Below are positions 24,351 through 45,499 of a stretch of 64,000 nucleotides of DNA, in pieces (positions within the stretch are counted from its first letter, which is position 1; the number at the start of each line of letters is the position of its first letter). The stretch lies in contig NZ_CP049905.1 of NCBI RefSeq assembly GCF_011305535.1, forward strand, positions 4,462,001 through 4,526,000. The letters run 5' to 3'. The notes beneath the pieces are model-generated. The model was given only the letters and a program-made list of their open reading frames with translations, had not been told where the DNA came from and did no database searches. A program made the translations under genes and the position numbers. The DNA comes from Diaphorobacter sp. HDW4B. Lineage in GTDB: Bacteria > Pseudomonadota > Gammaproteobacteria > Burkholderiales > Burkholderiaceae_C.

Positions 24351-24372
24351 AATATCGCTGGTGGCTTATATT
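24351..24372. promoter_or_regulatory. 22-bp palindrome AATAT-N12-ATATT (site 1)
   Basis: Perfect 5-base arms separated by 12 bases, located between the divergent dsrE-like (start 24290) and soxH-like (start 24440) genes. A copy with the same arms and spacing, matching at 16 of 22 positions, is present at 45478-45499 upstream of the rhodanese-YedE operon. The size, symmetry and AT-rich arms suit an ArsR/SmtB-type dimer. Binding by the protein at 23433 is inference. Confidence 0.6.
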
Positions 24373-24439
24373 AGCACTGGCACCGCGTGTGTCATGTGCT
24401 GGTTGATACCAGTCAAAACACATACAGGAGACGTTGAGG

Positions 24440-25456
24440 ATGTTAGTTCAAGGAGTGCGTTGGGCGGCAGGCGTTGTCATGTTGACAGGCATGCAGATTT
24501 CGGCGTTTGCGCATGGCGACCATGGCGCGGTCATGCAGGTCGCTCAAGCGGCAGTGGCGACGACGGCCCCGGAAGCGGCCTCGGTGAAGATGGAGGTCAA
24601 GAGCGTTGCGCCCAACGTCTACTACGTTCAGGGCGTGTCGGCGCTCGGCTCGCCAGCCAACCAGAACTTCATCTCGAACGCGGGCTTTGTGGTCACCGAC
24701 GACAGCGTGGTCGTGATCGACGCGCTGGGTTCGCCCGCATTGGCCGAGGAGTTGGTCGCCAAGATCAAGCAGATCACGCCCAAGCCGATCAGCACGGTGA
24801 TCCTCACGCACTACCACGCGGACCATATCTACGGCCTGCAAGTGTTCAAGGCACTGGGCGCCAAGATCGTCGCCAATGGGCTGGCCAAGGAATACATCAA
24901 CTCCGAGACGGCGCGTTTGCGTCTCGAAGCCTCGCGCACCGAGCTCGCGCCGTGGATCAACGCCGACACGAAAATGGTCAACGCCGACCAATGGATCGCT
25001 CAGGACGCGGTTCCGTTGAGCGTCGGTGGAACGGATTTTGTCCTGCAACACATGGGCCCCGCGCACACGCCTGAGGACACGGCGGTGTTCCTGCCGCAGA
25101 CCGGTGTACTGTTCATCGGCGACGTGGTGTTCCGCAACCGCATTCCCTATGTCGGTCAGGCCGACAGCCGCCACTGGATCACAGCGCTCGATGCCTTGCT
25201 CAAGCTGCCCGTGAAAGTGATGGTGCCCGGTCACGGCCCGGCATCCGATGAGCCCAGAAAGGACATGCAGATGACGCGCGACTACCTGGAGTTTCTGCGC
25301 ACATCCATGGCCAAGGCTGCGCAAAATCTCGACCCATTCGACGACGCCTACAAGGCCACCGATTGGTCGCGCTTCGAGGGCTATCCGCTGTTCAAGGAAG
25401 CCAACCGCATGAACGCCTACAACACCTATCTGCTGATGGAGCAGGAAAAGCCATGA
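24440..25456 (+). CDS. soxH: SoxH-like periplasmic metallo-beta-lactamase-fold hydrolase
   Basis: 338 residues from the ATG at 24440 with AGGAG nine bases upstream. Signal peptide to about residue 24 (QISAFAHG). Metal motif H124-x-H126-x-D128-H129 in ILTHYHADHIYG, with later ligands in MGPAHTPEDT and FIGDVVF and the C-terminal VPGHGP. This is the glyoxalase-II-like fold of SoxH and related sox-linked hydrolases; a thiol-ester or thiosulfonate-type substrate has been proposed for relatives but not settled. It overlaps the SoxW gene by four bases (ATGA). Confidence 0.82.
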   Translation: MLVQGVRWAAGVVMLTGMQISAFAHGDHGAVMQVAQAAVATTAPEAASVKMEVKSVAPNVYYVQGVSALGSPANQNFISNAGFVVTDDSVVVIDALGSPALAEELVAKIKQITPKPISTVILTHYHADHIYGLQVFKALGAKIVANGLAKEYINSETARLRLEASRTELAPWINADTKMVNADQWIAQDAVPLSVGGTDFVLQHMGPAHTPEDTAVFLPQTGVLFIGDVVFRNRIPYVGQADSRHWITALDALLKLPVKVMVPGHGPASDEPRKDMQMTRDYLEFLRTSMAKAAQNLDPFDDAYKATDWSRFEGYPLFKEANRMNAYNTYLLMEQEKP

Positions 25457-25938
25457 AGTCCTTGGACCGCCGTGCAGCACTGCTGGGACTGGCAAGCGCG
25501 CCCTGGCTGATGCCGTCGGCAATGGCCGCTCCGCAGGATGCGTCGGAGCGCCTTTTGCCGACCACTACTGACCTGCGCGCCAGCCTTGCGCAGGCGCTCG
25601 CACGCGGCGAGCCCTTGATCGTGCTGGCCACGTTGCACGGCTGCCCGTTCTGCAAGGTGGCGCGCGAGAACTATCTGGTGTCGGAACTGAAGGCGGGCCG
25701 TGCGGTCACACAGATCCAATTCCTCTCGCGCGATCCTGTGCGCGACTTGCAGGGCAACGAGACTACGCACGGTCAACTGGTCAAACAATTGCAGATCGAA
25801 GCGGCTCCGACCCTGCTTTTCTACGGCCCAGCCGCGAAGGAAGTCGCTCCACGATTGGTGGGCGGCTCCACCTCGGACTTCTACGCCGCGTATCTCGACG
25901 AGCGAGTCGCGCAGGCGAGGGCCGCCGTGCGCGGCTGA
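25453..25938 (+). CDS. soxW: SoxW-like periplasmic thioredoxin
   Basis: 161 residues. Signal sequence with a twin-arginine-like start (LDRRAALLGLASAPW) and cleavage near AMAA. Thioredoxin fold with redox site C64-P-F-C67 in LHGCPFCKVARENYL and the cis-Pro segment EAAPTLLFYG. SoxW normally receives electrons from the membrane protein SoxV and keeps the SoxY cysteine reduced. No soxV is present in the window, so an electron donor must be encoded elsewhere. The start overlaps the SoxH-like stop, and a terminator follows at 25950. Confidence 0.85.
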   Translation: MKSLDRRAALLGLASAPWLMPSAMAAPQDASERLLPTTTDLRASLAQALARGEPLIVLATLHGCPFCKVARENYLVSELKAGRAVTQIQFLSRDPVRDLQGNETTHGQLVKQLQIEAAPTLLFYGPAAKEVAPRLVGGSTSDFYAAYLDERVAQARAAVRG

Positions 25939-25949
25939 CCCATGAAAAA

Positions 25950-25985
25950 GGGGCATGAAGTTCATCACTTCATGCCCCCCATTTC
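25950..25985. terminator. Terminator after soxW
   Basis: Stem GGGGCATGAAGT (25950-25961) / ACTTCATGCCCC (25967-25978), perfect over 12 bases with a five-base loop, preceded by five A and followed by CCATTTC. The A-run upstream makes it more effective for the minus-strand IPTL gene that ends at 26022. Confidence 0.8.
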
Positions 25986-26021
25986 ATTGGAGCCTCATTT
26001 GAGCTTCATTGGCGCTTCGGA

Positions 26022-28586
26022 TCAGCTTTGTTGACGCTGGCGGCGTACGCCCATCAAGGCAAAGCCGCCAAGCAGCGCGGACAGCAGCCACAGCGCCCAT
26101 TCGCCCAGCGTCGGCACCGCGGCGGGATCGCTTGCCGCAGGCGTCAGCGTCTTGGCGACGTTGTTGGTCGGCACCGGGTCGGTGGTGGTGCTGCCTGCCG
26201 TGGTCGTGATGGTGACGATCGCCGCATCCTTGGGCGTGAACTTGGTCTCGCAGGTGATGCTTGCTCCCACCGCGAGGCTGGTCACGGGCGACGCTGGTGT
26301 GCAGATGGTGGTTGCACCGGTTGGCGCACCGGTGACCGTGCAGGTTGCATTGTCGGCAACGCTTGGGCCTGCATTCGTGCAGGTGCTGACGAGGGTGGCT
26401 TCCACGCCGGGTGTGCTCATCAATCCTGGAGGCGAGCTAGCCTGCATGTCCGCCATCGGTGGTGTCGTGATCACCGGGGTCTGTCCGACATTGTTGCTTG
26501 GATCAGGATCGGTCGTGGTGCTTGTGGCGGTGGTCACCAGCGTCACTGTGCCGGGTGTGGTGGGCGTGAACGTGGTCTCGCAGGAGATGACTCCGGTGCC
26601 CACAGCCAGTGCGGTCACGGGCGGCGTGGGTGTGCAGATGGTTGTGGCTCCGGTGGGCGCGCCCGTCACCTTGCAGTCGGCTGCTTCTGCGACATCGGGG
26701 CCTGCGTTCGTGCAGGTGCTGGTCACCTTCACGGGCGTGCCGACCGTTGTGGTGATGGTCGTCGGTGTGCTCACCTGCATGTCGGCCAGCGGACGCACAT
26801 ACAGCAGTGTGGGGGCAGCGTCATTGCTCGGGTTGGTGTCCAGCGAACCTGTGGTTGCGGCGGTGGTCGTCAGTGTGACCACTCCTGGTGTGACAGGCAC
26901 GAATGAGGTGGTGCACGAGATCACGCTGTTTGGAGCGAGGTCGGTGGGCGAGGGCGCGCAACTGGTGCTCACGCCCGTCGCATCGGTCGGAATGCCGGTG
27001 ACCGCACAGGTGGCACCGAGCGCCATGTCCGGGCCATCGTTCGTGCACGAGGTGTGGAAAGTGACCGGCGTGCCCTTGCTGACGGATTGCGATGTGGTGC
27101 CTGTGCCGATCAGGTCGACTGCTGGCAGCACGGTCACTTGTGCGGTGCCGGGTGGATTGAGCGCAAAAGTCTCCGTTGTTCCGGGTGTTCCGGCTGTGCC
27201 AGAGCCAAGTGGGCCATTGGTCAACGTTTGCGACGCGTTCATGGGCGCGGGTGCAGACACCTTGACGTCGAGCGACACCGTGCACGAGGCGGTGTTGGCA
27301 GGAAGGTCACCGGCTGTCACTGAAATTTTGTTGCCTCCCAAAGTCGCATTGGCCGTGGTGCTCGCGCCGCAATTGGTCGTGGGTGCGGATGCGACGGTCA
27401 TGCCTGTGGGTAGCGTGTCGGTGAACGTCCAGCCGGTCTTCTGCGCCAGCTCGGTCGTGTTCGTGATGGTGAAGGTCAGAGTGGTTGTCTTGCCATTGGC
27501 CAGTTGTGCGTCGGCAAAGGACTTGTCGAGTTGCGGCGTCAGGTCAAGAATTTTCAGATTGTCGAACGCGCCATCGTTGCCATTGGTTCCCGAAGAGTTG
27601 TTCACGAACTGCATGGCGACTCTGTCGCGCGTGTAGAGAACCGGCTTGTCGCCATAAATCTGCGCTCCGGAGATGACGCCCGAAGCAGGGGCGGTCGCCG
27701 GACACGGGTTGGCGGACTGGCTGTTGAGCTTGGTCAGGTTGGCGTTGCCTGTGCTCAGATCGGTCTTGTCGCCTGTCACATCGTGGATGAGATAGAAATC
27801 GATGTTCGCGTCAACCGGCGAGTGCGCTCCGCCTGCTGTGTATTTGCAGCTCGTCGTGGCCATGGCCACCGAGAACGTGATGAACCGGCCGCCTGCAGGA
27901 ATGGGGATCGGTTGTGTCATCTGCAACTGCACCAAGGGCTTCATCGGCGTATCCCGATTGGTTCGCGTGACGGTGTACGCCGCGATCACATGGTTGCCGG
28001 CGTTGGCTGCCTCGGTACCACCATTGACAAGCACACCGAGTGACTTGGCCAGACGCTGCAATTGGCCCCATGCATTGTTGAGTTTGCCGCCGAACCCGCC
28101 CATGCAGTAGGCAAGGTCATAACCATCGGTGTTGCCGGTACCGTTGGGGTCGTATTCGGCGGCAAGCAAAGCGCCCGTGGGGGCCACTTTGGTGGAGTCC
28201 AGCCACATCCCGTTGCAGAAGTTCTTGTTGAGCCAGAAGGGCACGTTCGGTGGATCGGGACGGGCAATGGCTGCGATTGCGGGAGTCCCCGTATAGGCAA
28301 CGCCCGCTGCCGTGTACTGGAGCGGATCGCCGTTCACATCCAAGGTAGCACTCTTGTACTCGCCGAGCGAGAGTGCTTGGCCTGCAGCAGGAGCGGTTTG
28401 TGGGTTCTCGAAATCCTCTTTGAAGATAGGAGGGTTGTCCGTCGGTATGCCGGGACTGCCCGCCGCAGCCTGTGCAGCCGTCATGCCCAGTGCGAGCATC
28501 ACCCCCAAGCTGGATTGCGTCAGCGTGAACCGAAACCCTGATGTGTCGAGCAGCGCTGTTTTTTTGTTTTTCATTGCATAAGTCAT
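26022..28586 (-). CDS. Large secreted IPTL-CTERM protein with DUF11-like repeats
   Basis: 854 residues. Extended signal peptide (about 1-42, ALGMTAAQAAA). A cysteine-containing N-terminal domain (43-350) of unknown family is followed by a domain starting LDKSFADAQLANGKTTTLTF (about 355-475) and three roughly 105-residue DUF11-type repeats, each with CTNxGPxxAxxAxCxVTGxPT and a closing TTxTDPxPSNN-like end. The C-terminus is an IPTL-CTERM tail: VPTLGEWALWLLSALLGG, then a basic end RRQRQQS. It is probably sorted to and anchored at the cell surface. It points opposite to the sox genes, which it splits; no sulfur role is evident. Confidence 0.85.
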   Translation of the reverse strand: MTYAMKNKKTALLDTSGFRFTLTQSSLGVMLALGMTAAQAAAGSPGIPTDNPPIFKEDFENPQTAPAAGQALSLGEYKSATLDVNGDPLQYTAAGVAYTGTPAIAAIARPDPPNVPFWLNKNFCNGMWLDSTKVAPTGALLAAEYDPNGTGNTDGYDLAYCMGGFGGKLNNAWGQLQRLAKSLGVLVNGGTEAANAGNHVIAAYTVTRTNRDTPMKPLVQLQMTQPIPIPAGGRFITFSVAMATTSCKYTAGGAHSPVDANIDFYLIHDVTGDKTDLSTGNANLTKLNSQSANPCPATAPASGVISGAQIYGDKPVLYTRDRVAMQFVNNSSGTNGNDGAFDNLKILDLTPQLDKSFADAQLANGKTTTLTFTITNTTELAQKTGWTFTDTLPTGMTVASAPTTNCGASTTANATLGGNKISVTAGDLPANTASCTVSLDVKVSAPAPMNASQTLTNGPLGSGTAGTPGTTETFALNPPGTAQVTVLPAVDLIGTGTTSQSVSKGTPVTFHTSCTNDGPDMALGATCAVTGIPTDATGVSTSCAPSPTDLAPNSVISCTTSFVPVTPGVVTLTTTAATTGSLDTNPSNDAAPTLLYVRPLADMQVSTPTTITTTVGTPVKVTSTCTNAGPDVAEAADCKVTGAPTGATTICTPTPPVTALAVGTGVISCETTFTPTTPGTVTLVTTATSTTTDPDPSNNVGQTPVITTPPMADMQASSPPGLMSTPGVEATLVSTCTNAGPSVADNATCTVTGAPTGATTICTPASPVTSLAVGASITCETKFTPKDAAIVTITTTAGSTTTDPVPTNNVAKTLTPAASDPAAVPTLGEWALWLLSALLGGFALMGVRRQRQQS

Positions 28587-28913
28587 AAATGATTACAACA
28601 AACAAGAATAGTTGGTTGTCGATCAGATGTGATGAATTAGTGCACACGCATTGTCAACTGTTGTTATTTTTGCACGATTGTCCATGTGTACGAGTCGTTA
28701 TTGGTGAGCGCTGAGTGTGGTGCGGAGATTCGCATGGCTTACCAGGCAGTCGAATGTCAACTCGGGTAGGCGCGAGAAGGTCATCGGTGGGTGCTTCGTC
28801 AGCCGCTATTCGTTGAATGAATAACGGGGGAAAACCCGTTGGATTTTGATCCATCTCACAGAACATAATCCAACACATAAATACATGCTTATATGTAGAT
28901 AAAGGACAAGACG
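28587..28913. other. Divergent intergenic region, IPTL protein / sox cytochrome
   Basis: 327 bases without a convincing gene, clearly AT-richer than neighbours. Near the sox side there is TACAT-N6-ATGTA (28882-28897), inside a looser CACAT-N12-ATATG arrangement that resembles the 22-bp palindrome found at 24351 and 45478. The sox transcript probably starts here because soxC and later genes have only short gaps. Exact promoter elements could not be assigned by eye. Confidence 0.4.
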
Positions 28914-29240
28914 ATGAAGCAGATTCGCAAGTACTTCGTGGCCGCAGCCTGTGTGATGGGTGGTTTGACAGTGGCAGCTCCGAGCTGGGCCAATCTGGCT
29001 TTGGCGCAGAAAAATGCCTGCATGGCCTGCCACACGGTCGACAAGAAGCTGGTCGGCCCTGCCTATCAGGACGTGGCCAAGAAGTACGCGGGTCAGGCCG
29101 ATGCGCAAGCTGCGCTGGCCAAGAGCATCAAAGCGGGTGGCTCAGGCAAGTGGGGCCCTGTGCCCATGCCTCCTCAGGCAGCACTCAGCGATGCCGATGC
29201 GAGCACGCTGGCTGCGTGGATTCTGGGTGGCTCCAAGTAA
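28914..29240 (+). CDS. Periplasmic class I cytochrome c (c551/c8 type) of the sox operon
   Basis: 108 residues: signal peptide to about ASWAN (residue 26), then one haem site C36-M-A-C-H40 and a likely Met ligand in GPVPMPPQ. The mature sequence is closely similar to the second haem domain of SoxD encoded 2 kb downstream (shared KNACxACH, VGPxxxDxAKKxAGQ, GGSGxWGxVPMPPQ), so one looks like a duplicate of the other. A natural role is electron acceptor for SoxCD or SoxAX. Gap to soxC is 72 bases. Confidence 0.9.
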   Translation: MKQIRKYFVAAACVMGGLTVAAPSWANLALAQKNACMACHTVDKKLVGPAYQDVAKKYAGQADAQAALAKSIKAGGSGKWGPVPMPPQAALSDADASTLAAWILGGSK

Positions 29241-29312: not shown

Positions 29313-30665
29313 ATGCATAACCAAATGACAGGTCGGGTGCGAAAGGCACCGGAAAATTTTGTCCAGGGAGACGGCGTCGCCAAAGTGTTTGCCGAGGCGA
29401 AGGCAGGGCGTCGCAGCTTCATCCGCAGTGCGTTTGCGGCGGCTGCGGCGGGCGCTGCCACGACGGCGTTTGCGCAGAACGGCCAGAACGTGGGCGAGGG
29501 CGATCCGAACATTCTGGAATTGCCCGCGCATACCAAGGGGCTGGGCCAGCCCGTCGCGGCAGAAGGTTACGGCAAGCCGTCGAAATACGAGGTCAATGTG
29601 CAGCGTCGCCCAAGCCCGGGTCTGACGCAGACACGTCAGGCATCGGTGTCGTTCGCGCCGCTGCAGTCGCTGTTCGGCATCGTCACGCCGAGCGGTCTGC
29701 ACTTCGAGCGTCACCATCAGGGCTGGTGGGACATCGATCCGTCCAAGCATCGCCTCATGGTGAACGGCCTCGTGAAGAACCCCAAGGTGTTCACGATGGA
29801 CGAACTGATGCGCTTGCCATCGGTGTCGCGCTTTCACTTCATCGAATGCGGTGCCAACACCGGCATGGAATGGGGCAACGTGGCCGTGCCTACCGTGCAG
29901 TACACGCACGGCATGATTTCGTGCAGCGAGTTCACCGGTGTGCCGCTGATCACGTTGCTGGAGATGGCCGGTGCTGATCTGAAGAAGGGCAAGTTCATTC
30001 TGGCCGAAGGTGCGGACGGCTCGTCGATGACGCGCACGATTCCGATCGAGCTGATCACGTCGGGCGAGGTGATCGTCGCCTACGGTCAGAACGGCGAGAT
30101 GCTGCGGCCCGAGCAAGGCTATCCGCTGCGTCTGGTGGTGCCGGGCGTGCAGGGCGTGAGCTGGGTGAAGTATCTGCGCCGCATCGAAGTGGGTGATGCG
30201 CCGTATGCGGCCAAGGATGAGGCGGTGCACTACATCGACCTGATGCCGGATGGCCAGCATCGCCAATATTCGAGCATTCAGGAATGCAAGAGCGTGGTGA
30301 CCACGCCTTCGGGCGGGCAGATGCTGCTGGACAAGGGCTTCTACAACATCACGGGGCTGGCGTGGTCCGGTTGTGGCAAGGTCAAGCGTGTGGATGTGAG
30401 TGTGGACGGCGGTCGCAACTGGCGCACCGCGCGCCTCGAAGGTCCGGTGATGAGCAAATGCCTCACGCGCTTCAACATCGACTGGGTGTGGGACGGCAAG
30501 CCCGCCATCATCCAGAGCCGCGCGATGGACGAGACCGGCTACGTGCAGCCGACGTATCAGCAGATGCGTGCGGTGCGCGGCACGCGTTCGATCTATCACA
30601 ACAACTCGATTCAGTCCTGGGCGCTGCGTGAGGACGGGGAGGTGGTCAATGTCCAGCTCGCGTAA
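29313..30665 (+). CDS. soxC: SoxC, molybdenum subunit of sulfane dehydrogenase
   Basis: 450 residues. Twin-arginine signal around AGRRSFIRSAF (R33-R34) with a hydrophobic stretch to about 54, fitting export of a folded molybdenum protein. Sulfite-oxidase fold with the molybdenum-ligand Cys179 in HFIECGANTGMEW; the dimerisation domain follows (LAWSGCGKVKRVDVSVDGG). With SoxD it removes six electrons from the SoxY-bound sulfane sulfur, which allows thiosulfate oxidation without sulfur globules. soxD starts 17 bases before its end. Confidence 0.96.
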   Translation: MHNQMTGRVRKAPENFVQGDGVAKVFAEAKAGRRSFIRSAFAAAAAGAATTAFAQNGQNVGEGDPNILELPAHTKGLGQPVAAEGYGKPSKYEVNVQRRPSPGLTQTRQASVSFAPLQSLFGIVTPSGLHFERHHQGWWDIDPSKHRLMVNGLVKNPKVFTMDELMRLPSVSRFHFIECGANTGMEWGNVAVPTVQYTHGMISCSEFTGVPLITLLEMAGADLKKGKFILAEGADGSSMTRTIPIELITSGEVIVAYGQNGEMLRPEQGYPLRLVVPGVQGVSWVKYLRRIEVGDAPYAAKDEAVHYIDLMPDGQHRQYSSIQECKSVVTTPSGGQMLLDKGFYNITGLAWSGCGKVKRVDVSVDGGRNWRTARLEGPVMSKCLTRFNIDWVWDGKPAIIQSRAMDETGYVQPTYQQMRAVRGTRSIYHNNSIQSWALREDGEVVNVQLA

Positions 30666-31737
30666 AGCCATGATGATGAAGACCGCTGTTGCAGCATCTC
30701 TGTCGGGATTGTTGGTTGCAGGCGCGTGGGCGCAAGGCGCTTCTGCCGAGAAGTTTCCGGGCGTGGGCCGCAATGCGACGGCCAAGGAAGTGCAGGCCTG
30801 GGACATCGACGTGCGCCCCGATTTCAAGGGTCTGCCCAAGGGTTCGGGCTCGGTCGAAAAGGGACAGGACGTATGGGAGGCCAAGTGCGCTTCGTGTCAC
30901 GGCGTGTTCGGTGAGTCCAACGAAGTGTTCTCGCCGCTGATCGGCGGAACCACCAAGGACGACATCAAGACCGGCAACGTCGCGCGTCTGAAGGATGCAT
31001 CGTTCCCCGGTCGCACGACCTTCATGAAGGTGCCGACGATCTCGACCGTTTGGGATTACATCAACCGCGCCATGCCGTGGAATGCGCCCAAGTCGCTGTC
31101 GCACGATGAGGTGTATGCGGTTACCGCCTACATGCTGAATTTGGCCGATATCGTGCCGCCGGACTTCACGCTCTCCGACAAGAACATTGCCGAGGTGCAG
31201 GCCCGCATGCCCAATCGCAACGGCATGACGACCGAACATGCGATGTGGCCCGGCACCGAGTTCACCCAGAAGGCCGTCAAGCCCGATGTGAAGGCAGTCG
31301 CTTGCATGAGCAACTGCGGGCCTGAGCCGCAGGTGCGCTCCAAGCTCCCCGATCACGCCAGCAACAACCACGGCAATCTGGCGGACCAGAATCGCCCCGT
31401 GGGTGCGCAGCATGGCGTGCAGACCGATTCAGCGGCCAAGCCCGCTGCGGCAGCGGCTCCTGCCATCAAAGCGGCAACGGGTGGTGCGGGTGGCGCGCCT
31501 ACAGCGCTGCTGGAGAAGAACGCCTGCATCGCTTGTCACGGCATGGACCAGAAGATCGTCGGTCCGAGCTTTGGCGACATCGCCAAGAAGCATGCGGGGC
31601 AGGTTGACTATCTGGTCGGCAAGATCAAGAACGGCGGCTCGGGCGTGTGGGGCAATGTCCCAATGCCCCCACAGCCTGGTATGAGTGATGATGAGGCCAA
31701 GTCCATCGCGAACTGGCTGGCTGGTTCAGCCAAGTAA
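30649..31737 (+). CDS. soxD: SoxD, dihaem cytochrome c subunit of sulfane dehydrogenase
   Basis: 362 residues from the ATG at 30649 (GGAGG six bases upstream); the ATG cluster at 30670 is an alternative. Signal peptide to about residue 33. First haem C80-A-S-C-H84 in the SoxD-specific domain, conserved CMSNC (219-223), an Ala/Pro-rich hinge (about 261-286), then a second haem domain with C293-I-A-C-H297. The second domain is closely related to the free cytochrome at 28914. Accepts electrons from SoxC. The start lies inside soxC, so the two are translationally coupled. Confidence 0.95.
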   Translation: MSSSRKAMMMKTAVAASLSGLLVAGAWAQGASAEKFPGVGRNATAKEVQAWDIDVRPDFKGLPKGSGSVEKGQDVWEAKCASCHGVFGESNEVFSPLIGGTTKDDIKTGNVARLKDASFPGRTTFMKVPTISTVWDYINRAMPWNAPKSLSHDEVYAVTAYMLNLADIVPPDFTLSDKNIAEVQARMPNRNGMTTEHAMWPGTEFTQKAVKPDVKAVACMSNCGPEPQVRSKLPDHASNNHGNLADQNRPVGAQHGVQTDSAAKPAAAAAPAIKAATGGAGGAPTALLEKNACIACHGMDQKIVGPSFGDIAKKHAGQVDYLVGKIKNGGSGVWGNVPMPPQPGMSDDEAKSIANWLAGSAK

Positions 31738-31778
31738 GTGAAAAGCGGTTGGACGAGGTTTCAGGAATTTTTGAGTCG

Positions 31779-31803
31779 TTTGAATTTTTTGAATCTTTTG
31801 AAT
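31779..31803. repeat. Three direct TTTGAAT repeats with 9-base period
   Basis: TTTGAAT occurs at 31779-31785, 31788-31794 and 31797-31803, exactly nine bases apart, in the 105-base gap between soxD and soxY. The surrounding bases are T-rich. It may be a regulator-binding array, an AU-rich RNA processing site or slippage. Confidence 0.5.
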
Positions 31804-31842
31804 ACGCAACGAATCCACATACGAATTGCAAGGAGAGAAGAC

Positions 31843-32298
31843 ATGATTTCACGTAGACAAGCAGTGAAGAACTCCGCCGCGGTGACGGGCATGCTGCTCG
31901 CCGCAGGCATGTTGCCGCAGTCGGCTTTCGCCTTCAACAAGGCGGCGTTCGACGCCAAGACCGTGGCCGACGTGATGAAGGCCATGGGCGCGGGCGCACC
32001 CACCGAGAGCAAGGACGTGACGCTGACCGCGCCCGACATCGCCGAAAACGGCGCGGTCGTGCCGCTGGGTGCCGCCACGTCGCTGGCCGGTGTGAAGCAC
32101 ATGCTCATTCTGGTCGAGAAGAACCCCAACACCATGGTGGCGTCGTTCGACGTGAGCGATGCGGTGGATGCCAACTTCCTCACGCGCGCCAAGCTCGGTC
32201 AGACCTCCGACGTGTACGCGGTTGCCATCACCAACGATGGCAAGGCGCTGTATGCGAAGAAGGAAGTCAAGGTCACTCTGGGTGGCTGCGGCGGCTGA
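31843..32298 (+). CDS. soxY: SoxY, sulfur-carrier subunit
   Basis: 151 residues from the ATG at 31843 with AAGGAG eight bases upstream. Twin-arginine signal MISRRQAVKNSAAVTG, cleavage near FAF (about residue 31). The chain ends in the swinging-arm motif GGCGG, where the Cys carries the thiosulfate-derived intermediates. SoxY has no other Cys in its mature part. It pairs with SoxZ, encoded 51 bases downstream, and the complex is probably exported together through Tat because SoxZ lacks a signal. Confidence 0.97.
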   Translation: MISRRQAVKNSAAVTGMLLAAGMLPQSAFAFNKAAFDAKTVADVMKAMGAGAPTESKDVTLTAPDIAENGAVVPLGAATSLAGVKHMLILVEKNPNTMVASFDVSDAVDANFLTRAKLGQTSDVYAVAITNDGKALYAKKEVKVTLGGCGG

Positions 32299-32349
32299 TG
32301 CGCGCACCGGAACATATCCACACTGAATTGAAAAATCAAGGAGAAGAAC

Positions 32350-32661
32350 ATGCCTGATCCGATGCGCATTCGTGCCCAAGCTGCTGGCGACAAAGTCACC
32401 GTCCGCGTTCTGATGTCCCATGAAATGGAAACCGGTCAACGCAAGGACGCGAGTGGCCAGGTGATCCCTGCCTGGTACATCCAGGACGTGAGTGCTTCGC
32501 TCAACGGCAAGCCGGTTTTCCGCGCCGAATGGGGTCCCGCTGTTTCCAAGAATCCGTTCCTGCAGTTCAATCTGAAGGGCGCGAAAGCGGGCGACAAGCT
32601 GTCTGTTACCTGGAAGGACAACAAGGGCGAAACCCGCACCGACGAAGCGACGGTGAGTTAA
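32350..32661 (+). CDS. soxZ: SoxZ, partner of the sulfur carrier
   Basis: 103 residues, no signal peptide, beta-sandwich protein of normal family length (MPDPMRIRAQAAGDKVTVRV, then LMSHEMETGQRKDASGQVIP and FISW-type end replaced by LSVTWKDNKGETRTDEATVS). It forms the heterodimer with SoxY that presents the Cys arm to SoxAX, SoxB and SoxCD. Ribosome-binding site AAGGAG is well placed. A hairpin lies just after the stop (32668). Confidence 0.96.
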   Translation: MPDPMRIRAQAAGDKVTVRVLMSHEMETGQRKDASGQVIPAWYIQDVSASLNGKPVFRAEWGPAVSKNPFLQFNLKGAKAGDKLSVTWKDNKGETRTDEATVS

Positions 32662-32667
32662 GCCTTC

Positions 32668-32690
32668 CCCCCTCTCTCTTCGGGAGGGGG
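32668..32690 (+). other. GC-rich hairpin between soxZ and soxA
   Basis: CCCCCTCTC (32668-32676) pairs with GGGAGGGGG (32682-32690) over nine bases (one G-T pair), five-base loop, six bases after the soxZ stop. No T-tract follows, so it is more likely an mRNA processing or stabilising element than a terminator. The 183-base soxZ-soxA gap is the longest inside soxCDYZA and contains no other convincing gene. Confidence 0.55.
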
Positions 32691-32844
32691 AGACCACCGG
32701 CGCGGCGGGGCGGCCCATGCGCGGTGGTTGCTGGCCCAGGGCCGGGCTCTATCAAACGGCATGACGGATCGCAGCATAGCGACGCAGCCATGGACCGAGA
32801 CACAAGCGGTCACCAGATTTCCCACAACAACAACGGAGACACCC

Positions 32845-33666
32845 ATGAGACGCTCAACGAAAGGCCTTGTGCCGTTTGCTGCGGTCGCGACGATGTCGCT
32901 GCTGTGCGCGCTCCAGCCCGCAGCAGCGCAGAAGAGCACGGCGGATGGCATCGCGGAATACCGCGAAATGCTGCAGGACGGCAATCCCGCCGAACTGTTC
33001 GAGATGAAAGGGGAAGAGCTCTGGAAACAGAAGCGCGGCCCCAAGAACGCCTCCATGGAACGCTGCGATCTGGGCAAGGGCCCCGGCGTGGTGAAGGGTG
33101 TCTTCGTCGAGCTGCCGCGCTACTTTGCCGATACCAGCAAGGTGCAGGATCTGGAGTCGCGCCTGCTCACCTGCATGGAAACGTTGCAGGGTCTGGATGC
33201 CAAGAAGATTGCCGCAACGCCTTTCGGCAAGGACGAGCAGAAGAACATGGAAGGGTTGGTGGCCTGGATTTCTGCCGAATCCAAGGGATTGAAGTTCAAT
33301 CTCTCGCAAGCCCATCCGCAAGAAAAACAGATGTATGAAGTGGGCAAGCGCATGTTCTACATGCGCGGCGGCCCGCATGATTTTGCGTGTGCCACATGCC
33401 ATGCGGCGGACGACAAGCGCATCCGCCTGCAGGACCTTCCCAACCTCACCAAGAACCCGGGCGCGGCCGCGGGCTTTGGTGCTTGGCCTGCGTATCGTGT
33501 TTCGTCCGGAGAGCTTTGGAGCATGCAGCGTCGTTTGAATGACTGCTTCCGCCAACAGCGCTTTCCATACCCCGGTTATGCGAGCGACGCCACGATTGCG
33601 CTGGGCGTGTTTCTGGGCGTGAACGGCAAGGGCGGCGAAGCTACGGCTCCGTCCATCAAGCGATAA
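32845..33666 (+). CDS. soxA: SoxA, thiosulfate-binding cytochrome c subunit (single-haem type)
   Basis: 273 residues from the ATG at 32845. Signal peptide to about residue 28 (LQPAAAQ). The first cytochrome-like domain has lost its haem motif but keeps C74 and C110, a likely disulfide; the second has C182-A-T-C-H186. Arg230-x3-Cys234 in SMQRRLNDCFRQQR matches the Arg-Cys pair of the active site in which the Cys is both haem ligand and sulfur acceptor. With SoxX it couples thiosulfate to SoxY. soxX follows after 15 bases. Confidence 0.95.
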   Translation: MRRSTKGLVPFAAVATMSLLCALQPAAAQKSTADGIAEYREMLQDGNPAELFEMKGEELWKQKRGPKNASMERCDLGKGPGVVKGVFVELPRYFADTSKVQDLESRLLTCMETLQGLDAKKIAATPFGKDEQKNMEGLVAWISAESKGLKFNLSQAHPQEKQMYEVGKRMFYMRGGPHDFACATCHAADDKRIRLQDLPNLTKNPGAAAGFGAWPAYRVSSGELWSMQRRLNDCFRQQRFPYPGYASDATIALGVFLGVNGKGGEATAPSIKR

Positions 33667-33681
33667 GGCAGGAGAAGCACT

Positions 33682-34338
33682 ATGCAAAAACGCAATCACT
33701 GGCTGCCTGTTCTGGGCGTTGCCTCTTCGCTTATCGTGCTGGGCTGTGCTTCGGTGGACAGCTCTGCCGACATCGACAAACTCACGCAGCAGATCGTGAC
33801 CGCATCGTTTCGCGACCAAGGCATTGCCAAGGTCGATCGCTTGAAGCAGGACGAATCGAATGCTGCCTGCAGCGCTGCCGATGTGGCCGGAAAACCCATC
33901 GATGCCAAACTCAGCGCCAAGATCGAGGCCGACAACCTCAAGACCGTGCAATGGCCCGCAGGCGGCAAGTTCGTGGGCGACTGGAAAGAAGGCGAGAAGC
34001 TCGCGCAGAACGGTCGCGGCATGACCTGGACCGACAAGATCGGCGACGCCAATGGCGGCAACTGCTACAACTGCCACCAGATCAGCAAGCAGGAAATCTC
34101 CTTCGGCACGCTGGGCCCCAGCCTTTACAACTACGGCAAGATCCGCGGCATCACCGATCCGAACAGTCCAGAGGCCAAAGCCATCGTCGAATACACCTGG
34201 GGCAAGATATGGAATGCCAAGGCCTACAACGCCTGCTCCGGCATGCCAAGATTCGGACATGAAAAAATCCTGACCGAAAAACAGGTGCAGGATCTGCTCG
34301 CGTTGCTGGTGGATCCCAACTCACCAGTCAACAAGTAG
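33682..34338 (+). CDS. soxX: SoxX, monohaem cytochrome c subunit, predicted lipoprotein
   Basis: 218 residues. The signal sequence ends in SLIVLGCAS with Cys22 in a lipobox, so this SoxX should be membrane-anchored, unlike the soluble form in Paracoccus. About 90 residues precede the haem domain and contain a free Cys63; the haem site is C128-Y-N-C-H132 and the likely Met ligand is in CSGMPRFG (M188). SoxX pairs with SoxA. Long N-terminal extensions occur in some SoxX subfamilies. Operon position between soxA and soxB is regular. Confidence 0.93.
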   Translation: MQKRNHWLPVLGVASSLIVLGCASVDSSADIDKLTQQIVTASFRDQGIAKVDRLKQDESNAACSAADVAGKPIDAKLSAKIEADNLKTVQWPAGGKFVGDWKEGEKLAQNGRGMTWTDKIGDANGGNCYNCHQISKQEISFGTLGPSLYNYGKIRGITDPNSPEAKAIVEYTWGKIWNAKAYNACSGMPRFGHEKILTEKQVQDLLALLVDPNSPVNK

Positions 34339-34566
34339 CTAGGTCTTTGATTCCCGCCGAAGGCGCAACACACAACGAAGCGTTAACCCAAGCAGGAATC
34401 AACCCCCACAACGCCAAGACAGCCCTTCAGACGCGACGCGAAGCCGCAGACAGTATGTTCATACGGCAAGGCGTCGCAACAAAGTATGAAGGGCTGTATT
34501 GGCGCCTCAAAACGAATGACCAATCGAAGCCGCAAGGCTTCGCAACAAGCAAAGAAAAGAAGAAAA

Positions 34567-36306
34567 ATGAGCCTCTCCAAACGCGAATTCATGCAGGTTC
34601 TGGCGGCGGCTGGAGTCGCTGGAATGGGCTTGCAACGTTATGCCCATGCCGATGGAAAAACGGCAGATGCCGCGCTGTACGACGTTCCAAAATTCGGCAA
34701 CGTCAGCTTCCTGCACATGACCGACTGCCACGCGCAGTTGAACCCCATCTACTTTCGCGAACCCAATGTGAATCTGGGTATCGGTGCGATGAAGAACCAG
34801 CGCCCGCATCTGGTGGGCGAGCACCTGCTCAAATCCGTTGGCGTGCGTCCCGGCACCGCATCAGCCTACGCGTTCAGTTATCTCGATTTTGAAAGCGCCG
34901 CGAAGCGCTATGGCAAGGTGGGCGGTTTTGCCCATCTGTCCACACTGGTCAAACGCATGAAGGCGTCGCGCCCCGGTGCCTTGCTGCTCGATGGTGGCGA
35001 TACCTGGCAAGGCTCGGGCACATCGCTGTGGACCAACGCGCAGGACATGGTCGATGCCTGCAAGCTGCTGGGCGTCGATGTGATGACCGGCCACTGGGAG
35101 TTCACCTATGGCATGGAGCGGGTGAAGGAAATCATCGAAAAAGACTTTGGCAGCAAGCTCGATTTTGTGGCGCAGAACGTCAAGACCACCGACTTTGGCG
35201 ACCCGGTTTTCAAACCTTATGTGATCCGCGAAATGAATGGCGTGCCTTGCGCCATCATCGGGCAGGCCTTTCCTTACACGCCGATTGCCAATCCGCGCTA
35301 CATGGTGTCTGACTGGAGCTTCGGCATTCAGGACGAGAACCTGCAGGCCATGGTGGACGAGGCGCGCGGCAAGGGCGCAAAAGTCGTCGTTGTGCTCTCG
35401 CACAATGGCATGGACGTGGACATCAAGATGGCCTCGCGCGTGCGCGGCATCGACGCGATTCTGGGTGGGCACACGCATGACGGCATGCCTGTGCCGACCA
35501 TCGTCGAGAACGCTGGTGGCAAGACCATCGTCACCAATGCGGGGTCGAACGGCAAGTTCCTTGGCGTGCTCGATTTCGATGTAAAGAACGGCAAGGTGGC
35601 GGATTTCAAATACCGCCTGCTGCCGATCTTCTCCAACATTCTGCCGGCCGATGCCGACATGCGGGCGCTCATCACCAAGGTGCGCGCGCCATATGAAGCC
35701 AAGCTGGCCGAGGTGCTGGCGCGCACCGATGGCACGCTGTATCGACGCGGCAATTTCAACGGCACGGGCGACCAGTTGCTGCTCGACGCGATGATGGCCG
35801 TGCAGGATTGCCCGATCGCTTTTTCGCCAGGTTTCCGCTGGGGCACGTCGCTGCTGCCGGGACAGGACATCACGCGCGAATGGCTCATGGACATGACGGC
35901 GACGACCTATTCGTATGCCACCGTGACCGAGATGACGGGCGCGACCATCAAGACCGTGCTGGAAGACGTCTGCGACAACCTGTTCAACCCCGATCCGTAT
36001 TACCAGCAGGGCGGCGACATGGTGCGCGTGGGTGGCCTGCAATACAAGTGCGACCCGACCGCCAAGGCGGGTAGCCGCATCACCGAGATGCGCTTGAAGG
36101 GCGAGCTGCTCGACGCCGAGAAAAAATACAAGGTGGCCGGTTGGGCACCTGTGGCCGAAGAGGCCAAGTCGGCGGGCAACAAGCAGATCTGGGAAATCGT
36201 CGAGCCGTGGCTCAAGGACCAGAAGGTGATTGCGCCGCGCAAGCTCAACGAGCCGGGCCTGCTGAACGTGCAGCCCAATCAAGGGATGGAGGGGATAGCC
36301 CAGTAA
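34567..36306 (+). CDS. soxB: SoxB, SoxY-thiocysteine sulfate hydrolase
   Basis: 579 residues from the ATG at 34567; the open frame upstream begins in non-conserved sequence. Export signal SKREFMQVLAAAGVAGMG is Tat-like with KR in place of RR. Dimanganese 5'-nucleotidase fold: MTDCHAQLNP (metal ligands D and H), LLDGGDTWQGS, TGHWEFTYG and GGHTHDGMP, and a C-terminal domain from about 400. It hydrolyses the SoxY-S-sulfonate to release sulfate. The 228-base gap after soxX holds a GTATG-TT-CATAC palindrome at 34453 but no gene I can support. Confidence 0.96.
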   Translation: MSLSKREFMQVLAAAGVAGMGLQRYAHADGKTADAALYDVPKFGNVSFLHMTDCHAQLNPIYFREPNVNLGIGAMKNQRPHLVGEHLLKSVGVRPGTASAYAFSYLDFESAAKRYGKVGGFAHLSTLVKRMKASRPGALLLDGGDTWQGSGTSLWTNAQDMVDACKLLGVDVMTGHWEFTYGMERVKEIIEKDFGSKLDFVAQNVKTTDFGDPVFKPYVIREMNGVPCAIIGQAFPYTPIANPRYMVSDWSFGIQDENLQAMVDEARGKGAKVVVVLSHNGMDVDIKMASRVRGIDAILGGHTHDGMPVPTIVENAGGKTIVTNAGSNGKFLGVLDFDVKNGKVADFKYRLLPIFSNILPADADMRALITKVRAPYEAKLAEVLARTDGTLYRRGNFNGTGDQLLLDAMMAVQDCPIAFSPGFRWGTSLLPGQDITREWLMDMTATTYSYATVTEMTGATIKTVLEDVCDNLFNPDPYYQQGGDMVRVGGLQYKCDPTAKAGSRITEMRLKGELLDAEKKYKVAGWAPVAEEAKSAGNKQIWEIVEPWLKDQKVIAPRKLNEPGLLNVQPNQGMEGIAQ

Positions 36307-36369: not shown

Positions 36370-37488
36370 ATGAGTGTTTCCGAGTTCGATTCGTTGGTCG
36401 CCACCGTTCTGGTGGCCGTTTTTTTGTTGGCCGCCGTGCTGGGTGCCGTCATGCGCGAGACGCGTTTTTGCACCATGGGGGCCATCAGCGATGTGGTCTA
36501 TGTGGGCGACTGGATGCGCATGCGCCAGTGGCTGCTCGCCATTGGCGTGGCGATGATCGGCTTTGCGCTGCTGGCGAACATCGGCTGGGTCCAGCCCGCC
36601 GACACCATCTACGCCATGCGCCGCGTGCTGTGGCTCTCGTCCATCGTGGGTGGGGTGATGTTCGGCATCGGCATGGTGATGGCGTCGGGCTGCGGTGCGC
36701 GCAATCTCACGCGCGTGGGGGGCGGCAGTCTCAAGTCGCTGGTGGTGCTGATCGTGATGGCTGTGGCCGGGTTTGCGACGCTCAAAGGCATCACCTCGGT
36801 GCCGCGTGCGCGTTGGCTGGAGAGCGTTTTCGTCGAAATGCCGCACATCACGCTGCTGCCCGAATGGCTGGCGGCTTCGGGCGTGGCATCGCTCGATGTG
36901 CTGCGGCTGGTGCTGGGTTGCGGTGTGGGTGCAGTGCTGGTGCTCGTCGGCTTTGGCGGGCCACGCAGTCAGCGTGACTGGCATGTGCTGATCGGCGGTC
37001 TGCTGGTGGGCGCGGCGGTGGCCGCAGCATGGGCGCTGAGCGGCCATATGGGCGAAGTGCAGGAGCATCCCGAGACGCTGGAGCACATGTATGCCACGAC
37101 TTACACGGGCCGCATCGAGGCCTTCAGCTTTGTGGCGCCGGTGGCCCATGTGCTGGATTGGCTGCTGTTCTTCAGTGACCGCGCCAAGGTGCTGACATGG
37201 GGCGCGGTGGCAGTGTTCGGCATGGTGTTCGGTGCCCTCGTGCAGTCGCTCATTCGCCGCGAATTCCGCTGGCAGGGTTTTGCCGACACGGCTGATCTGG
37301 CCAGGCATCTGATCGGCGCAACGCTCATGGGCGTGGGCGGTGTGGTTGCGATGGGCTGCACTGTAGGACAGGGCCTGAGCGCGATCTCGATGTTGCAGAT
37401 CGGCAGCTTCCTCTCGGTGGCGGCGATTGTGGCGGGCGCGGTGATCGCTCTGCGTGTGCAGCAGTGGGCGTTGGAGCGCAGTGCCTGA
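36370..37488 (+). CDS. YeeE/YedE-family (TsuA-like) thiosulfate or sulfur transporter
   Basis: 372 residues with about 9-10 membrane segments. The pseudo-symmetric cysteine motifs are present: RFCTMGAISD near the N-terminus, MASGCGARN in the first half and MGCTVGQGLSA in the second, which in TsuA relay thiosulfate through the membrane by S-S contacts. It is co-directional with soxB, 63 bases downstream. It may import thiosulfate or export sulfur species linked to Sox activity. It differs from the second YedE protein at 43182, which has a distinct arrangement (GCGSGTL, GCNVGAMFSG). Confidence 0.88.
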   Translation: MSVSEFDSLVATVLVAVFLLAAVLGAVMRETRFCTMGAISDVVYVGDWMRMRQWLLAIGVAMIGFALLANIGWVQPADTIYAMRRVLWLSSIVGGVMFGIGMVMASGCGARNLTRVGGGSLKSLVVLIVMAVAGFATLKGITSVPRARWLESVFVEMPHITLLPEWLAASGVASLDVLRLVLGCGVGAVLVLVGFGGPRSQRDWHVLIGGLLVGAAVAAAWALSGHMGEVQEHPETLEHMYATTYTGRIEAFSFVAPVAHVLDWLLFFSDRAKVLTWGAVAVFGMVFGALVQSLIRREFRWQGFADTADLARHLIGATLMGVGGVVAMGCTVGQGLSAISMLQIGSFLSVAAIVAGAVIALRVQQWALERSA

Positions 37489-41984: not shown

Positions 41985-42039
41985 ATGGCGCAGATTCAAA
42001 CGGTGGTTTGAAGGCTTGCTTGGGGCACACCGCAAAAAC

Positions 42040-42069: not shown

Positions 42070-42120
42070 GCTTATTCATGGAGTTTGAAGAACCGTGGGC
42101 TCTTCAAACCCTCACAGCGA

Positions 42121-42705: not shown

Positions 42706-42983
42706 AACAGTCCTTCCTTTGTGTTTAGAGATACGCCCATCGAAAAGTGAAGTAGGCGCATGTCCTTATTTTGAGGAAGCGAGTCGACGCGTGCCATCAC
42801 GGTCGTCAACGACGCTGCCTAAATCAGGATGCAGCCATCGTATTGACTGTTGGCGCTTTTGTACTGAGCAGCACATGAGGATGCGCCCTTGGCCTACAAG
42901 ATCAGTTGTCCGCCAACATGTGGGTTGGCGACAGAGTTGCAGGTGTTTAGGCTCGTTGGTGTGGTGCTTGCGTTGGTGTCTGC

Positions 42984-43160
42984 TTACTTGCCAGCGGGCA
43001 TGGAGCAATGGCCGCCATGCGTGGCCTGGCCGGAACCGGCTGCGATCAGGGGTGCTTCAAAGCGCAGATCGACCTTGGGCGAGGCGGCATAGTCCCAGGC
43101 CAGAAAGGCCAGCAGTGCGATCCAGAAAGCGGCGCGCAGGGTGCGTTGTGGTGTGGTCAT
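42984..43160 (-). CDS. 58-residue single-span membrane protein of the rhodanese-YedE module
   Basis: ATG at 43160, TAA at 42984. A basic N-terminus (MTTPQRTLRA) leads into one membrane helix (AAFWIALLAFLAWDYA, about 10-25), and the short exported or soluble tail ends THGGHCSMPAGK with two His and one Cys. It begins 21 bases after the YedE stop on the same strand, with codon use like its neighbours, so it is probably the third gene of that operon. The ribosome-binding site is weak (AAAGAA). I know no family; the His-His-Cys-Met tail could bind metal or sulfur. Confidence 0.6.
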   Translation of the reverse strand: MTTPQRTLRAAFWIALLAFLAWDYAASPKVDLRFEAPLIAAGSGQATHGGHCSMPAGK

Positions 43161-43181
43161 GTTCGAGTTCTTTGTGTTCGC

Positions 43182-44342
43182 TCACATGCCGAAGTGGCGA
43201 CGAATGCGCAGGCCGAAGATGGTGCCCGCGAATGCGAGCGGCACCCAGATCCAACCGTGGATGCTGCCGGTGGAGATGCCCGAGAACATCGCGCCCACAT
43301 TGCAGCCAAAGGCCAGACGCGAGCTGTAGCCAAGGATCAGACCGGCGACGAGCGCAACCACCCATTGCTTGCCGGTGAGCGCTTTGGCAGACACGGGCTT
43401 GGCCGCAGCCACCCAGAGTGCGCCGCCGAGAATGCCGATGTTGGTGATGCTGGTGACATCGAGCAGCACGGTCTCGCTCAGACGCGCGGCGTTGCCGGGC
43501 TGGCTCCAGAACCAGTTCTGCGACAGATCGATGGCGCCTGTGGCGTTGGCGACCTTCGCAGCCCACAGGCCAAAGCCGTAGACCACGCCCCATGGCTGGC
43601 CCGCGATGATGAGGTTCAGCGTGGCGAGAATCGCCAGCAGCACGGCACCGACCAGCCACTTGCGCACGAACAGCGGCTTCGCTGGACGGTTGAGTTTGGC
43701 GTTGGCGCTGCGCGTGTAGAGCGTGACGCCGACAGCGACCACGGCCAGTGCTGCGAGCGTGCCGACGAGTGCGTATTGCCAGCCCCATGCAGTCACCAGA
43801 CCGACGGGTTGCAGTGCGCCCAGATCGAGCCACCAGCCGAGGCTCAGGCTGCCCAGAAAACTGCCGATCGCGAACATCGGCAGGATGGCCGTGTTCATCG
43901 GAATGCCCATGCCAGCCTTGTACAGCGTGCCGCTGCCGCAGCCGTCAGCAATCTGCATGCACAGGCCGAAGACGAATGCGCCGACCAGCAGGCTGATGCT
44001 GGGCGGGCCGAGCGCGGCGGTCAGTTCGGGGAAGTGGCCGAGCAGCGGCATGGCCATCGCGGCGGCCAATGCGAGCAGCAGCAATTGGCCGAAGACACCG
44101 CTGGCATCTTTGTTTTCCACCAGCATGCGCCAGCCGGTGGTGAAACCAAAGCGCTTGCCCGCCAGCACCGCGCCAAGACCCAAGCCAATCGCGAAGAGGG
44201 CAGCCTGACGGACCGAGACGCTCCACAGCAGCCAGCCGAAGAAGACGAGAAAGAGCAGGGCAAGCGGCAGTCGATTGCTGCCGTTCGTTGAAGTGGTGGC
44301 GGTGCCTTGCGAGGCGGTTGCCGTGGTGGTGGCCGTGTTCAT
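43182..44342 (-). CDS. YeeE/YedE-family sulfur transporter
   Basis: 386 residues, Thr/Ser-rich N-terminus (about 1-25) and about 10 membrane segments. Cysteine motifs CMQIADGCGSGTLYKAGMG in the first half and LAFGCNVGAMFSGISTGS in the second, the latter being the textbook YeeE signature, ahead of HGWIWVPLAFAGTIFGL. Relatives import thiosulfate or sulfane sulfur. It lies 64 bases downstream of the periplasmic rhodanese gene and 21 bases before the 58-residue protein, forming a three-gene sulfur module. Confidence 0.9.
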   Translation of the reverse strand: MNTATTTATASQGTATTSTNGSNRLPLALLFLVFFGWLLWSVSVRQAALFAIGLGLGAVLAGKRFGFTTGWRMLVENKDASGVFGQLLLLALAAAMAMPLLGHFPELTAALGPPSISLLVGAFVFGLCMQIADGCGSGTLYKAGMGIPMNTAILPMFAIGSFLGSLSLGWWLDLGALQPVGLVTAWGWQYALVGTLAALAVVAVGVTLYTRSANAKLNRPAKPLFVRKWLVGAVLLAILATLNLIIAGQPWGVVYGFGLWAAKVANATGAIDLSQNWFWSQPGNAARLSETVLLDVTSITNIGILGGALWVAAAKPVSAKALTGKQWVVALVAGLILGYSSRLAFGCNVGAMFSGISTGSIHGWIWVPLAFAGTIFGLRIRRHFGM

Positions 44343-44406
44343 GCTGGATGAATCTTCTGTTCTGTGTTGGACTTGAAAAAGCGGGTGCGTTCAGCGGATC
44401 GGTCGA

Positions 44407-45348
44407 TCACTTGAACGTGCGCTTCCACCATTGCTGTGCGTCGTAGGCCAGCGATTCGGCGCGGGTCGGCTGATTGGCCATCTGCGGTGCGTCCTTGGAC
44501 TGGGTCCAGTCGACCATCGATCCGGCATACAGCTTCACGGCAGGCAGGCCTGCAACTTCCGACAGGCCGAACCAGTCGGTCGCAGCCCAGTGGCCGGTGT
44601 TGCAGAAGGCGACCGTGTCCGTGCCGTTCTCGCGTTTGATCTTCGCGGCGATCTGCTTGGCCTTGTCGGCATTCACAAACTGCGAGGTGCCGGGCTCGAA
44701 CCATTGGTTGAAGTCGAGTTGCTGTGCGCCGGGCAGGGTGCCGGAGACCTTGGCCGCAGGCGCGCGCGTCTTGCCCTGATAGAACGCATCGGGGCGCGAA
44801 TCGACCAGCGCGGCATTGCTCAGGTCGAGATGCTTGCGCACATCGGCGCGCGTGGCGAGCCACTGCGCATCGAACTTGGGCGCAAAGCTGCTGGGCGTGA
44901 TTTGAATGGCGGTGTGGGAGGTTGGCTCATCGGCCATTTCCCAGGCGTGCATGCCGCCGTTGACGATGGAAAGCTCCTTCAGGCCAAGGCTCTTGAGCGT
45001 CCAGTAGACGCGCGCCATGGCGCCGAAATCCGTGGCATCGACGCCGTTCGAGACCACGACGGCGTGCGTCTGAGCGGTCAGGCCGAGCGACTGCACGAGC
45101 TTGACCAGTTTGTCCTGATCGGGCAGGTCGCCGGGGTTGGTGGCCGGGCCGCGCCACTTGCCGTAAGGCGCGTTCACGGCACCTTCGATATGGCCGAGCT
45201 CGAAGCTCTTGGGGTCGCGAATGTCGATCACGCGAACGTGGGCCTGCGCCAGCAGCGGCTTGAGTTCCTGCGGCGTGAGAAGAGGCTGGGCGGACCACGC
45301 GAACTGGCTTGCAGTCAACGTGGCCGCAAAGGCGAGGATGGCTTTCAT
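44407..45348 (-). CDS. Periplasmic two-domain rhodanese (thiosulfate sulfurtransferase)
   Basis: 313 residues from the ATG at 45348. Signal peptide MKAILAFAATLTASQFAWSA. First rhodanese domain (about 22-145, VIDIRDPKSFELGHIEGAVN) is inactive: the loop VVVSNG has Ser100 in place of Cys. The second (about 160-295, LVDSRPDAFYQGK) carries catalytic Cys249 in VAFCNTGHWAAT. Exported location plus the YedE transporter downstream suggests it transfers sulfur from thiosulfate before or after membrane passage. The 22-bp palindrome is 130 bases upstream of the start. Confidence 0.92.
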   Translation of the reverse strand: MKAILAFAATLTASQFAWSAQPLLTPQELKPLLAQAHVRVIDIRDPKSFELGHIEGAVNAPYGKWRGPATNPGDLPDQDKLVKLVQSLGLTAQTHAVVVSNGVDATDFGAMARVYWTLKSLGLKELSIVNGGMHAWEMADEPTSHTAIQITPSSFAPKFDAQWLATRADVRKHLDLSNAALVDSRPDAFYQGKTRAPAAKVSGTLPGAQQLDFNQWFEPGTSQFVNADKAKQIAAKIKRENGTDTVAFCNTGHWAATDWFGLSEVAGLPAVKLYAGSMVDWTQSKDAPQMANQPTRAESLAYDAQQWWKRTFK

Positions 45349-45477
45349 GGTGGGCTGTTGGGTCGTGTTCGATGCATGAGATCGCAGACGACACCGGAGC
45401 AACCTGTGTGGCCGATCTCTATATATCGTCATTGTCTTATTTATGCTTTCCAAACCAAACGAAGGAAAAGCAGTTTC

Positions 45478-45499
45478 AATATGCTTGTTTGGTTATATT
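45478..45499. promoter_or_regulatory. 22-bp palindrome AATAT-N12-ATATT (site 2)
   Basis: Same arms and same 12-base spacer as site 1 at 24351-24372; 16 of 22 bases match when aligned without gaps. It lies in the 252-base region upstream of the rhodanese start (45348). Overlapping it is a further inverted repeat AACCAAAC (45453-45460) / GTTTGGTT (45487-45494). Likely an operator or promoter-overlapping site for the rhodanese-YedE operon. Confidence 0.6.

Follow-up and report, generated by a model that had tools for sequence, protein, structure and literature searches.

Described sulfur-responsive regulators and the Diaphorobacter locus

Control of sox genes by regulators of the SoxR type is, in the accessible portions of the published work, described for Alphaproteobacteria. 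In the known relatives, as the available parts of these papers have it, a sulfur bridge between two cysteines leads to release of the DNA (PMC10451225, PMC12423496), and SoxR of Hyphomicrobium denitrificans signals together with a YeeE-type transporter partner (PMC11582611). Here, we considered a 64,000-nucleotide stretch of Diaphorobacter sp. HDW4B (contig NZ_CP049905.1; hereafter the window), in which several palindromes precede genes for sulfur oxidation. Judged from sequence comparison, these palindromes are probably (roughly three chances in four) the operators of an ArsR-family protein encoded at 23322..23738 (+), which would be a SoxR-like repressor of sulfur oxidation.

The locus resembles that of H. 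denitrificans SoxR, as far as the available text of that work goes, in two respects: an ArsR-type gene adjoins a sox cluster that includes YeeE-type transporters, and several (here putative) intergenic targets lie beyond the core sox operon (PMC10451225). By analogy, a YeeE-type partner role would fit the two such transporters found here. More conspicuously, H. denitrificans SoxR is described in the same text as sensing via a Cys50-Cys116 bridge, whereas the protein here has three cysteines, none of which aligns with the helix-2 cysteine of SqrR. Repeats and electrophoretic mobility shift assay probes are reported for H. denitrificans SoxR, and the parts of the paper examined hold no operator consensus that we could find (PMC10451225). 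For the group of SqrR from Rhodobacter capsulatus and YgaV from Escherichia coli, the SqrR site given in the part of the paper available is ATTC-N8-GAAT (PMC9774250), unlike the TATATnAGY-N4-RCTnATATA found here, and no ATTC-N8-GAAT occurs at the sulfur promoters of the window. Four exact ATTC-N8-GAAT sequences lie elsewhere in the window (4254, 13574, 38058, and 41259), all within long open reading frames (0.50 expected; at least four in 0 of 100 shuffles).

Operator candidates in the window

The preliminary description of this DNA had drawn attention to the palindrome AATAT-N12-ATATT at 24351-24372 and 45478-45499, and both copies indeed lie there, with 16 of 22 bases identical. They are the only exact ones within the 64-kb window; the preliminary description, which saw no further copy by eye in the intergenic regions, missed a better-scoring site at 45422-45443. 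With at most one mismatch, WATAT-N12-ATATW has five matches in the window, two of them overlapping, against 0.10 expected (at least five in 0 of 100 shuffles), and with at most two mismatches, AATAT-N12-ATATT has six against 2.14 (at least six in 2 of 100 shuffles).

Scanning of the window with a matrix trained without any sequence of the genus gave as its top three matches 45421-45444 (20.7), 28873-28896 (20.0), and 24350-24373 (17.2), which lie at three sulfur promoters. Ranks four to six were taken by 50457 (13.8), 23164 (13.6), and 45477-45500 (13.1). In 800 kb sampled of the same genome, we counted three matches of at least 17, or about 0.24 expected per 64 kb, and at the background matches of at least 18 (L155, L149, and L143) no sulfur promoter was evident by eye from the translations. 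The best score per shuffled window averaged 10.9, with its 95% point at 14.2 and its maximum at 17.2. Moreover, a pattern hand-fitted to the three window sites occurs at 11 places in the six genomes that make up the genus comparison, 10 of them at these promoters and one not.

Between dsrE (-) and soxH (+), the candidate at 24351..24372 (rank 3, 17.2) is exact in all six genus genomes (the G004 contig stops short of soxH), which bears out the conservation expected of it, and sits within roughly 36 bp of nearly unchanged sequence, with the remaining intergenic sequence drifting. Directly upstream of the genes for cytochrome c, soxCDYZAXB, and a sulfur transporter lies the candidate at 28874..28895 (rank 2, 20.0), which is kept in all five genus sequences compared, those of every genome but G004; the four besides the window score 23.3-24.1. 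Here, the preliminary description had seen a relative of the form CACAT-N12-ATATG at 28882; this relative is real and in the same register, but it spans 28874-28895, with 28882 being the start of the inner TACAT-N6-ATGTA, and the label "weaker" does not suit a site that is among the strongest matrix matches. A second conserved palindrome, with the by-eye consensus CGYTATTC-N7-GAATAACG and containing ATTC-N7-GAAT, is found nearby at 28805-28826, upstream of the same cytochrome-sox genes; it is similar in all five genus sequences compared, and may be bound by an activator or a second regulator.

Upstream of the rhodanese gene, the top-ranked candidate (45422..45443; 20.7) lies 56 bp closer to the gene than the exact palindrome at 45478..45499 (rank 6, 13.1), and is a better choice of operator than the latter, for which that role had been proposed. 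With the same matrix, the best rhodanese-upstream match scores 19.6 in G003, 19.6 in G005, 18.4 in G004, and 16.1 in G001, and G002 has none. Conservation of the exact copy extends to only half of the genus genomes (G000, G003, and G005); the other three are without it, G001 and G002 having a different sequence upstream of rhodanese and G004 a different arrangement. Possibly, 45478-45499 is a weaker auxiliary site.

A scan of the whole 6.2-Mb genome, as the preliminary description had advised, found three exact places for AATAT-N12-ATATT and none for a reversed control pattern. The third copy, at C1:4433407-4433428 (L001), lies upstream of a MetQ/NlpA-like gene, and G005 also has an exact site that resembles it. 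In 15 relatives, the exact pattern occurs at 19 places (5 at dsrE/soxH, 2 at rhodanese, and 12 elsewhere) and the reversed control at 6. Two of the off-target places were inspected, L075 and L067, and are taken as chance; judging by the translations, one is flanked by pdxA-like and mscL-like genes and the other precedes an MFS-type gene. Alternatively to a shared role, then, the two copies in the window may be alike by chance, 24351 being an operator and 45478 not, which we would put somewhat short of an even bet: the sixth rank of the 45478 copy, the matrix score of 11.2 for the third genome copy, and the 12 of 19 places away from both promoters fit such a chance likeness, whereas the arms of the 45478 copy are exact in three genus genomes while its spacer varies, and the copy is no more than 151 bp away from the rhodanese start.

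The ArsR-family regulator gene is itself preceded by a weak candidate at 23239..23260 (12.4 in the window), which lies in a conserved block and makes autoregulation possible. The regulator-upstream site scores 14.7 in L035, 10.2 in L037, 19.4 in L038, and 20.1 in L011, and is outside the top six in L036.

The site beside regulator orthologs

An ortholog of the regulator was found at E 1e-34 in 99 of 299 genomes of the family, four of these within the genus, and 52 of the 95 non-genus loci were sampled as stretches of 5-20 kb each. Sox structural genes are present at 30 of these 52 loci, so that linkage of the regulator gene to sox genes, as expected of a SoxR, is seen there as well as in the window, and soxH-like and/or transporter genes are present at 15 more. 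The remaining seven include L104 with a thioredoxin-like gene only, L124 with a cytochrome gene only, and five with none of the genes sought. At L120 and L121, two close regulator copies stand in one 20-kb stretch (66% and 70%; 65% and 57%), recalling the Hyphomicrobium SoxR/sHdrR pair.

Taking these loci together with the window as sole genus member (53 loci), ATATAAG was the best upstream 7-mer, at 27 loci against 1.8 expected, with the best 8-mer, AATATAAG, at 17 loci against 0.75 and the best 9-mer, AATATAAGC, at 14 against 0.1. When ATAT-N(k)-ATAT was counted for k of 2-20 in 237 non-genus upstream regions, there was a peak at k=12, with 17 matches in 17 loci and a shuffled mean of 0.3; k=14 occurred in seven loci and k=16 in four, further even spacings had at most four hits, and odd spacings had none. 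The palindromic matrix estimated from the non-genus regions reads tTATATcAGtAatTaCTgATATAa, with the site consensus TATATnAGY-N4-RCTnATATA; the genes preceded by its sites are soxC, soxB, soxH, transporters, the cytochrome, and the regulator gene itself. AATAT-N12-ATATT is one case of this family-wide site. The matrix came from one-site-per-region estimation with a start matrix hand-written after inspection of the window and the relatives' sites; it is held out by sequence and not by frame, and the word count and spacing histogram are the freer tests. An earlier motif search allowing many sites per region was dropped because it had slid toward AT-rich sequence, giving 846 sites against a shuffled average of 187, and an Infernal sequence-only model was set aside with a best E-value of 0.12 and a partial match at the 24351 site.

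In five-fold cross-validation, 33 of the 52 regulator loci reached a score of at least 19 and 40 reached at least 15, as did 0 and 1.2% of 520 shuffles. By comparison, among 14 sox clusters whose genomes lack a strong ortholog, just two came up to either threshold (Fisher p 0.0018 at 19 and 3e-5 at 15). This control is suggestive only, because just four of the 14 clusters are from the same family (the other 10 being from other families) and most hold less upstream sequence. Three of the 14 contain a more distant ArsR-type gene: one high-scoring cluster, L205, has its own beside soxC, and such a gene is also present in L203 (3.3) and L206 (14.4), where the site score is low. Among GTDB loci, 67 of 80 were used, namely those without a 60-mer common to the training set or the window; in 16 of these 67, a site of at least 17 is no farther than about 1 kb from the regulator, as against 0.1% of shuffles, and 51 have none.

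The conserved sites could instead be core promoter elements, that is, AT-rich -10 regions, or the sites of another regulator. TATATT does resemble a -10 hexamer, the cytochrome of the other high-scoring control cluster, L202 (G035), is preceded by a strong operator-like site with no regulator in the stretch and none in the genome at E 1e-12, and the further conserved palindrome upstream of the cytochrome means that more than one factor may act. However, the motif is a 22-bp dyad that prefers a spacing of 12 and keeps its inner AGY/RCT letters, inspection by eye (without a promoter scan) showed nothing like a TTGACA -35 element at a distance of 17 bp, and in several genera sites also precede the regulator gene. 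The contrast between 2 of 14 and 40 of 52 at the threshold of 15, uneven as that control is, speaks against this reading too, and we consider a promoter element or a different regulator quite improbable. The family-wide motif and the held-out scan support the proposal that a single regulon ties together the Sox cluster and the genes for sulfur transporter and rhodanese. Moreover, the ArsR-family protein put forward as its regulator is still the best candidate, with the site recurring beside its ortholog, though the gene model has to be revised.

The candidate regulator, its possible ligand, and the genes it may control

The preliminary description had begun the protein at ATG 23433, giving 101 residues. 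Its start is probably ATG 23322, giving 138, because the N-terminal stretch MSIRKNWPQSRR... remains open for reading and has a similar peptide in all six genus sequences. Placement in the ArsR/SmtB winged helix-turn-helix family is indicated by PF01022 HTH_5 (45.6 bits, cut-off 22) and NF033788 (81-82 bits, cut-off 55), and the predicted model (predicted local distance difference test 81) shows helices and a wing, with ArsR-family proteins as its best structural matches. Three cysteines (numbered in the 101-residue form) are highly conserved, with Cys35 in 62, Cys90 in 66, and Cys94 in 65 of 66 aligned rows. Compared with BigR of Xylella, Agrobacterium, and Acinetobacter, the protein falls short, with 63.3 bits in the NCBIfam BigR model NF040642 against a cut-off of 155.

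Several observations weigh against operators of a SoxR-like repressor. The helix-2 cysteine of SqrR aligns with Ser32, not a cysteine, and of the defining SqrR pair, which we take to be Cys41/Cys107 (SoxR Cys50/Cys116), the first position, the only one visible in the alignment since the second lies just beyond its printed end, is not kept. For this reason the protein, though apparently SoxR-like in its working, is not filed as a proven SoxR, SqrR, or BigR member. Turning to the sites, permuted-column matrices averaged a best score of 14.0 and reached 22.2, so that score alone is no proof; the exact AATAT-N12-ATATT is not specific on its own, given its off-target places in the relatives; and L202 pairs a strong site with a genome lacking the regulator.

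The same operator and ArsR protein could also serve a different ligand, with a metal or metalloid bound by Cys35, Cys90, and Cys94 as in arsenic-type ArsR sensors. In line with this, the protein matches best, and above cut-off, an NCBIfam model for a metalloregulator subfamily, the three conserved cysteines are placed differently from those of SqrR, and in the fold search CzrA and mycobacterial SmtB match about as well as SqrR, so that the modeled fold by itself would not favor SoxR over metal sensors. Set against this are the generic nature of that NCBIfam model and the sox, soxH-like, or transporter genes at the loci described above (30 of 52 and 15 more), a one-sided count as arsenic and metal genes were not searched for. 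On balance, we regard a metal ligand as unlikely.

As a SoxR-like repressor, the protein would act as a homodimer, with one ATATnAGY half-site per subunit, and block the promoter in the absence of reduced sulfur. Sulfane sulfur (polysulfide or persulfide from thiosulfate) would modify Cys35 with Cys90 and/or Cys94, the modified dimer would let go of the DNA, and the dsrE/soxH, cytochrome-sox-transporter, and rhodanese-transporter operons would be induced together, the regulator gene perhaps weakly. DNA binding, the direction of control, and the SoxR-like response to sulfane sulfur are what we infer, and the same holds for the sensed ligand because none of this protein's conserved cysteines, three in number, is placed as in the SqrR/SoxR pair so far as the alignment shows.

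Among the genes concerned, a DsrE/F-family protein (23874..24290, -; PF02635, 42.4 bits) is divergent from a SoxH-like metallo-hydrolase of the metallo-beta-lactamase fold (24440..25456, +; PF00753, SoxH-related models being under their cut-offs), followed by a thioredoxin-like protein (25453..25938, +; PF13098, 25.1 bits, slightly below the cut-off of 27). The small c-type cytochrome (28914..29240, +; PF00034) precedes soxC, a soxD-like cytochrome, soxY, soxZ, soxA, soxX, and soxB (29313..36306, +). NCBIfam equivalogs are above cut-off for SoxC, SoxY, SoxZ, SoxA, SoxX, and SoxB, and the soxD label is based on position and weak cytochrome matches. A YeeE/YedE-type sulfur transporter (36370..37488, +; PF04143, 211 bits, TsuA models being under cut-off) comes next. 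Further along are the two-domain rhodanese-domain protein (44407..45348, -; PF00581 in two stretches) and, downstream of it, a second YeeE/YedE-type sulfur transporter (43182..44342, -; PF04143, 138 bits). An open reading frame of 854 amino acids with repeats (26022-28586) separates the thioredoxin-like gene from the cytochrome; only one of the four other genus stretches compared has it, at 42% identity.

Our literature search, with subscription papers and regulon databases outside it, recognized no paper with this operator or regulator in Comamonadaceae. It is possible, at close to even odds, that Comamonadaceae hold a separate sox-repressor lineage, with a three-cysteine sulfane-sulfur sensor (Cys35, Cys90, and Cys94) shifted from the SqrR/SoxR pair, a TATATnAGY-N4-RCTnATATA operator, and Sox, DsrE/SoxH, two YeeE-type transporters, and rhodanese in one regulon. 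The regulator is carried by records named Comamonas, Delftia, Variovorax, Ramlibacter, and Limnohabitans, among others. For a large bacterial group, the candidate system offers an operator that can be tested and a short list of targets in the control of thiosulfate oxidation, and it points to a sensor whose cysteine layout differs from those described in Alphaproteobacteria.
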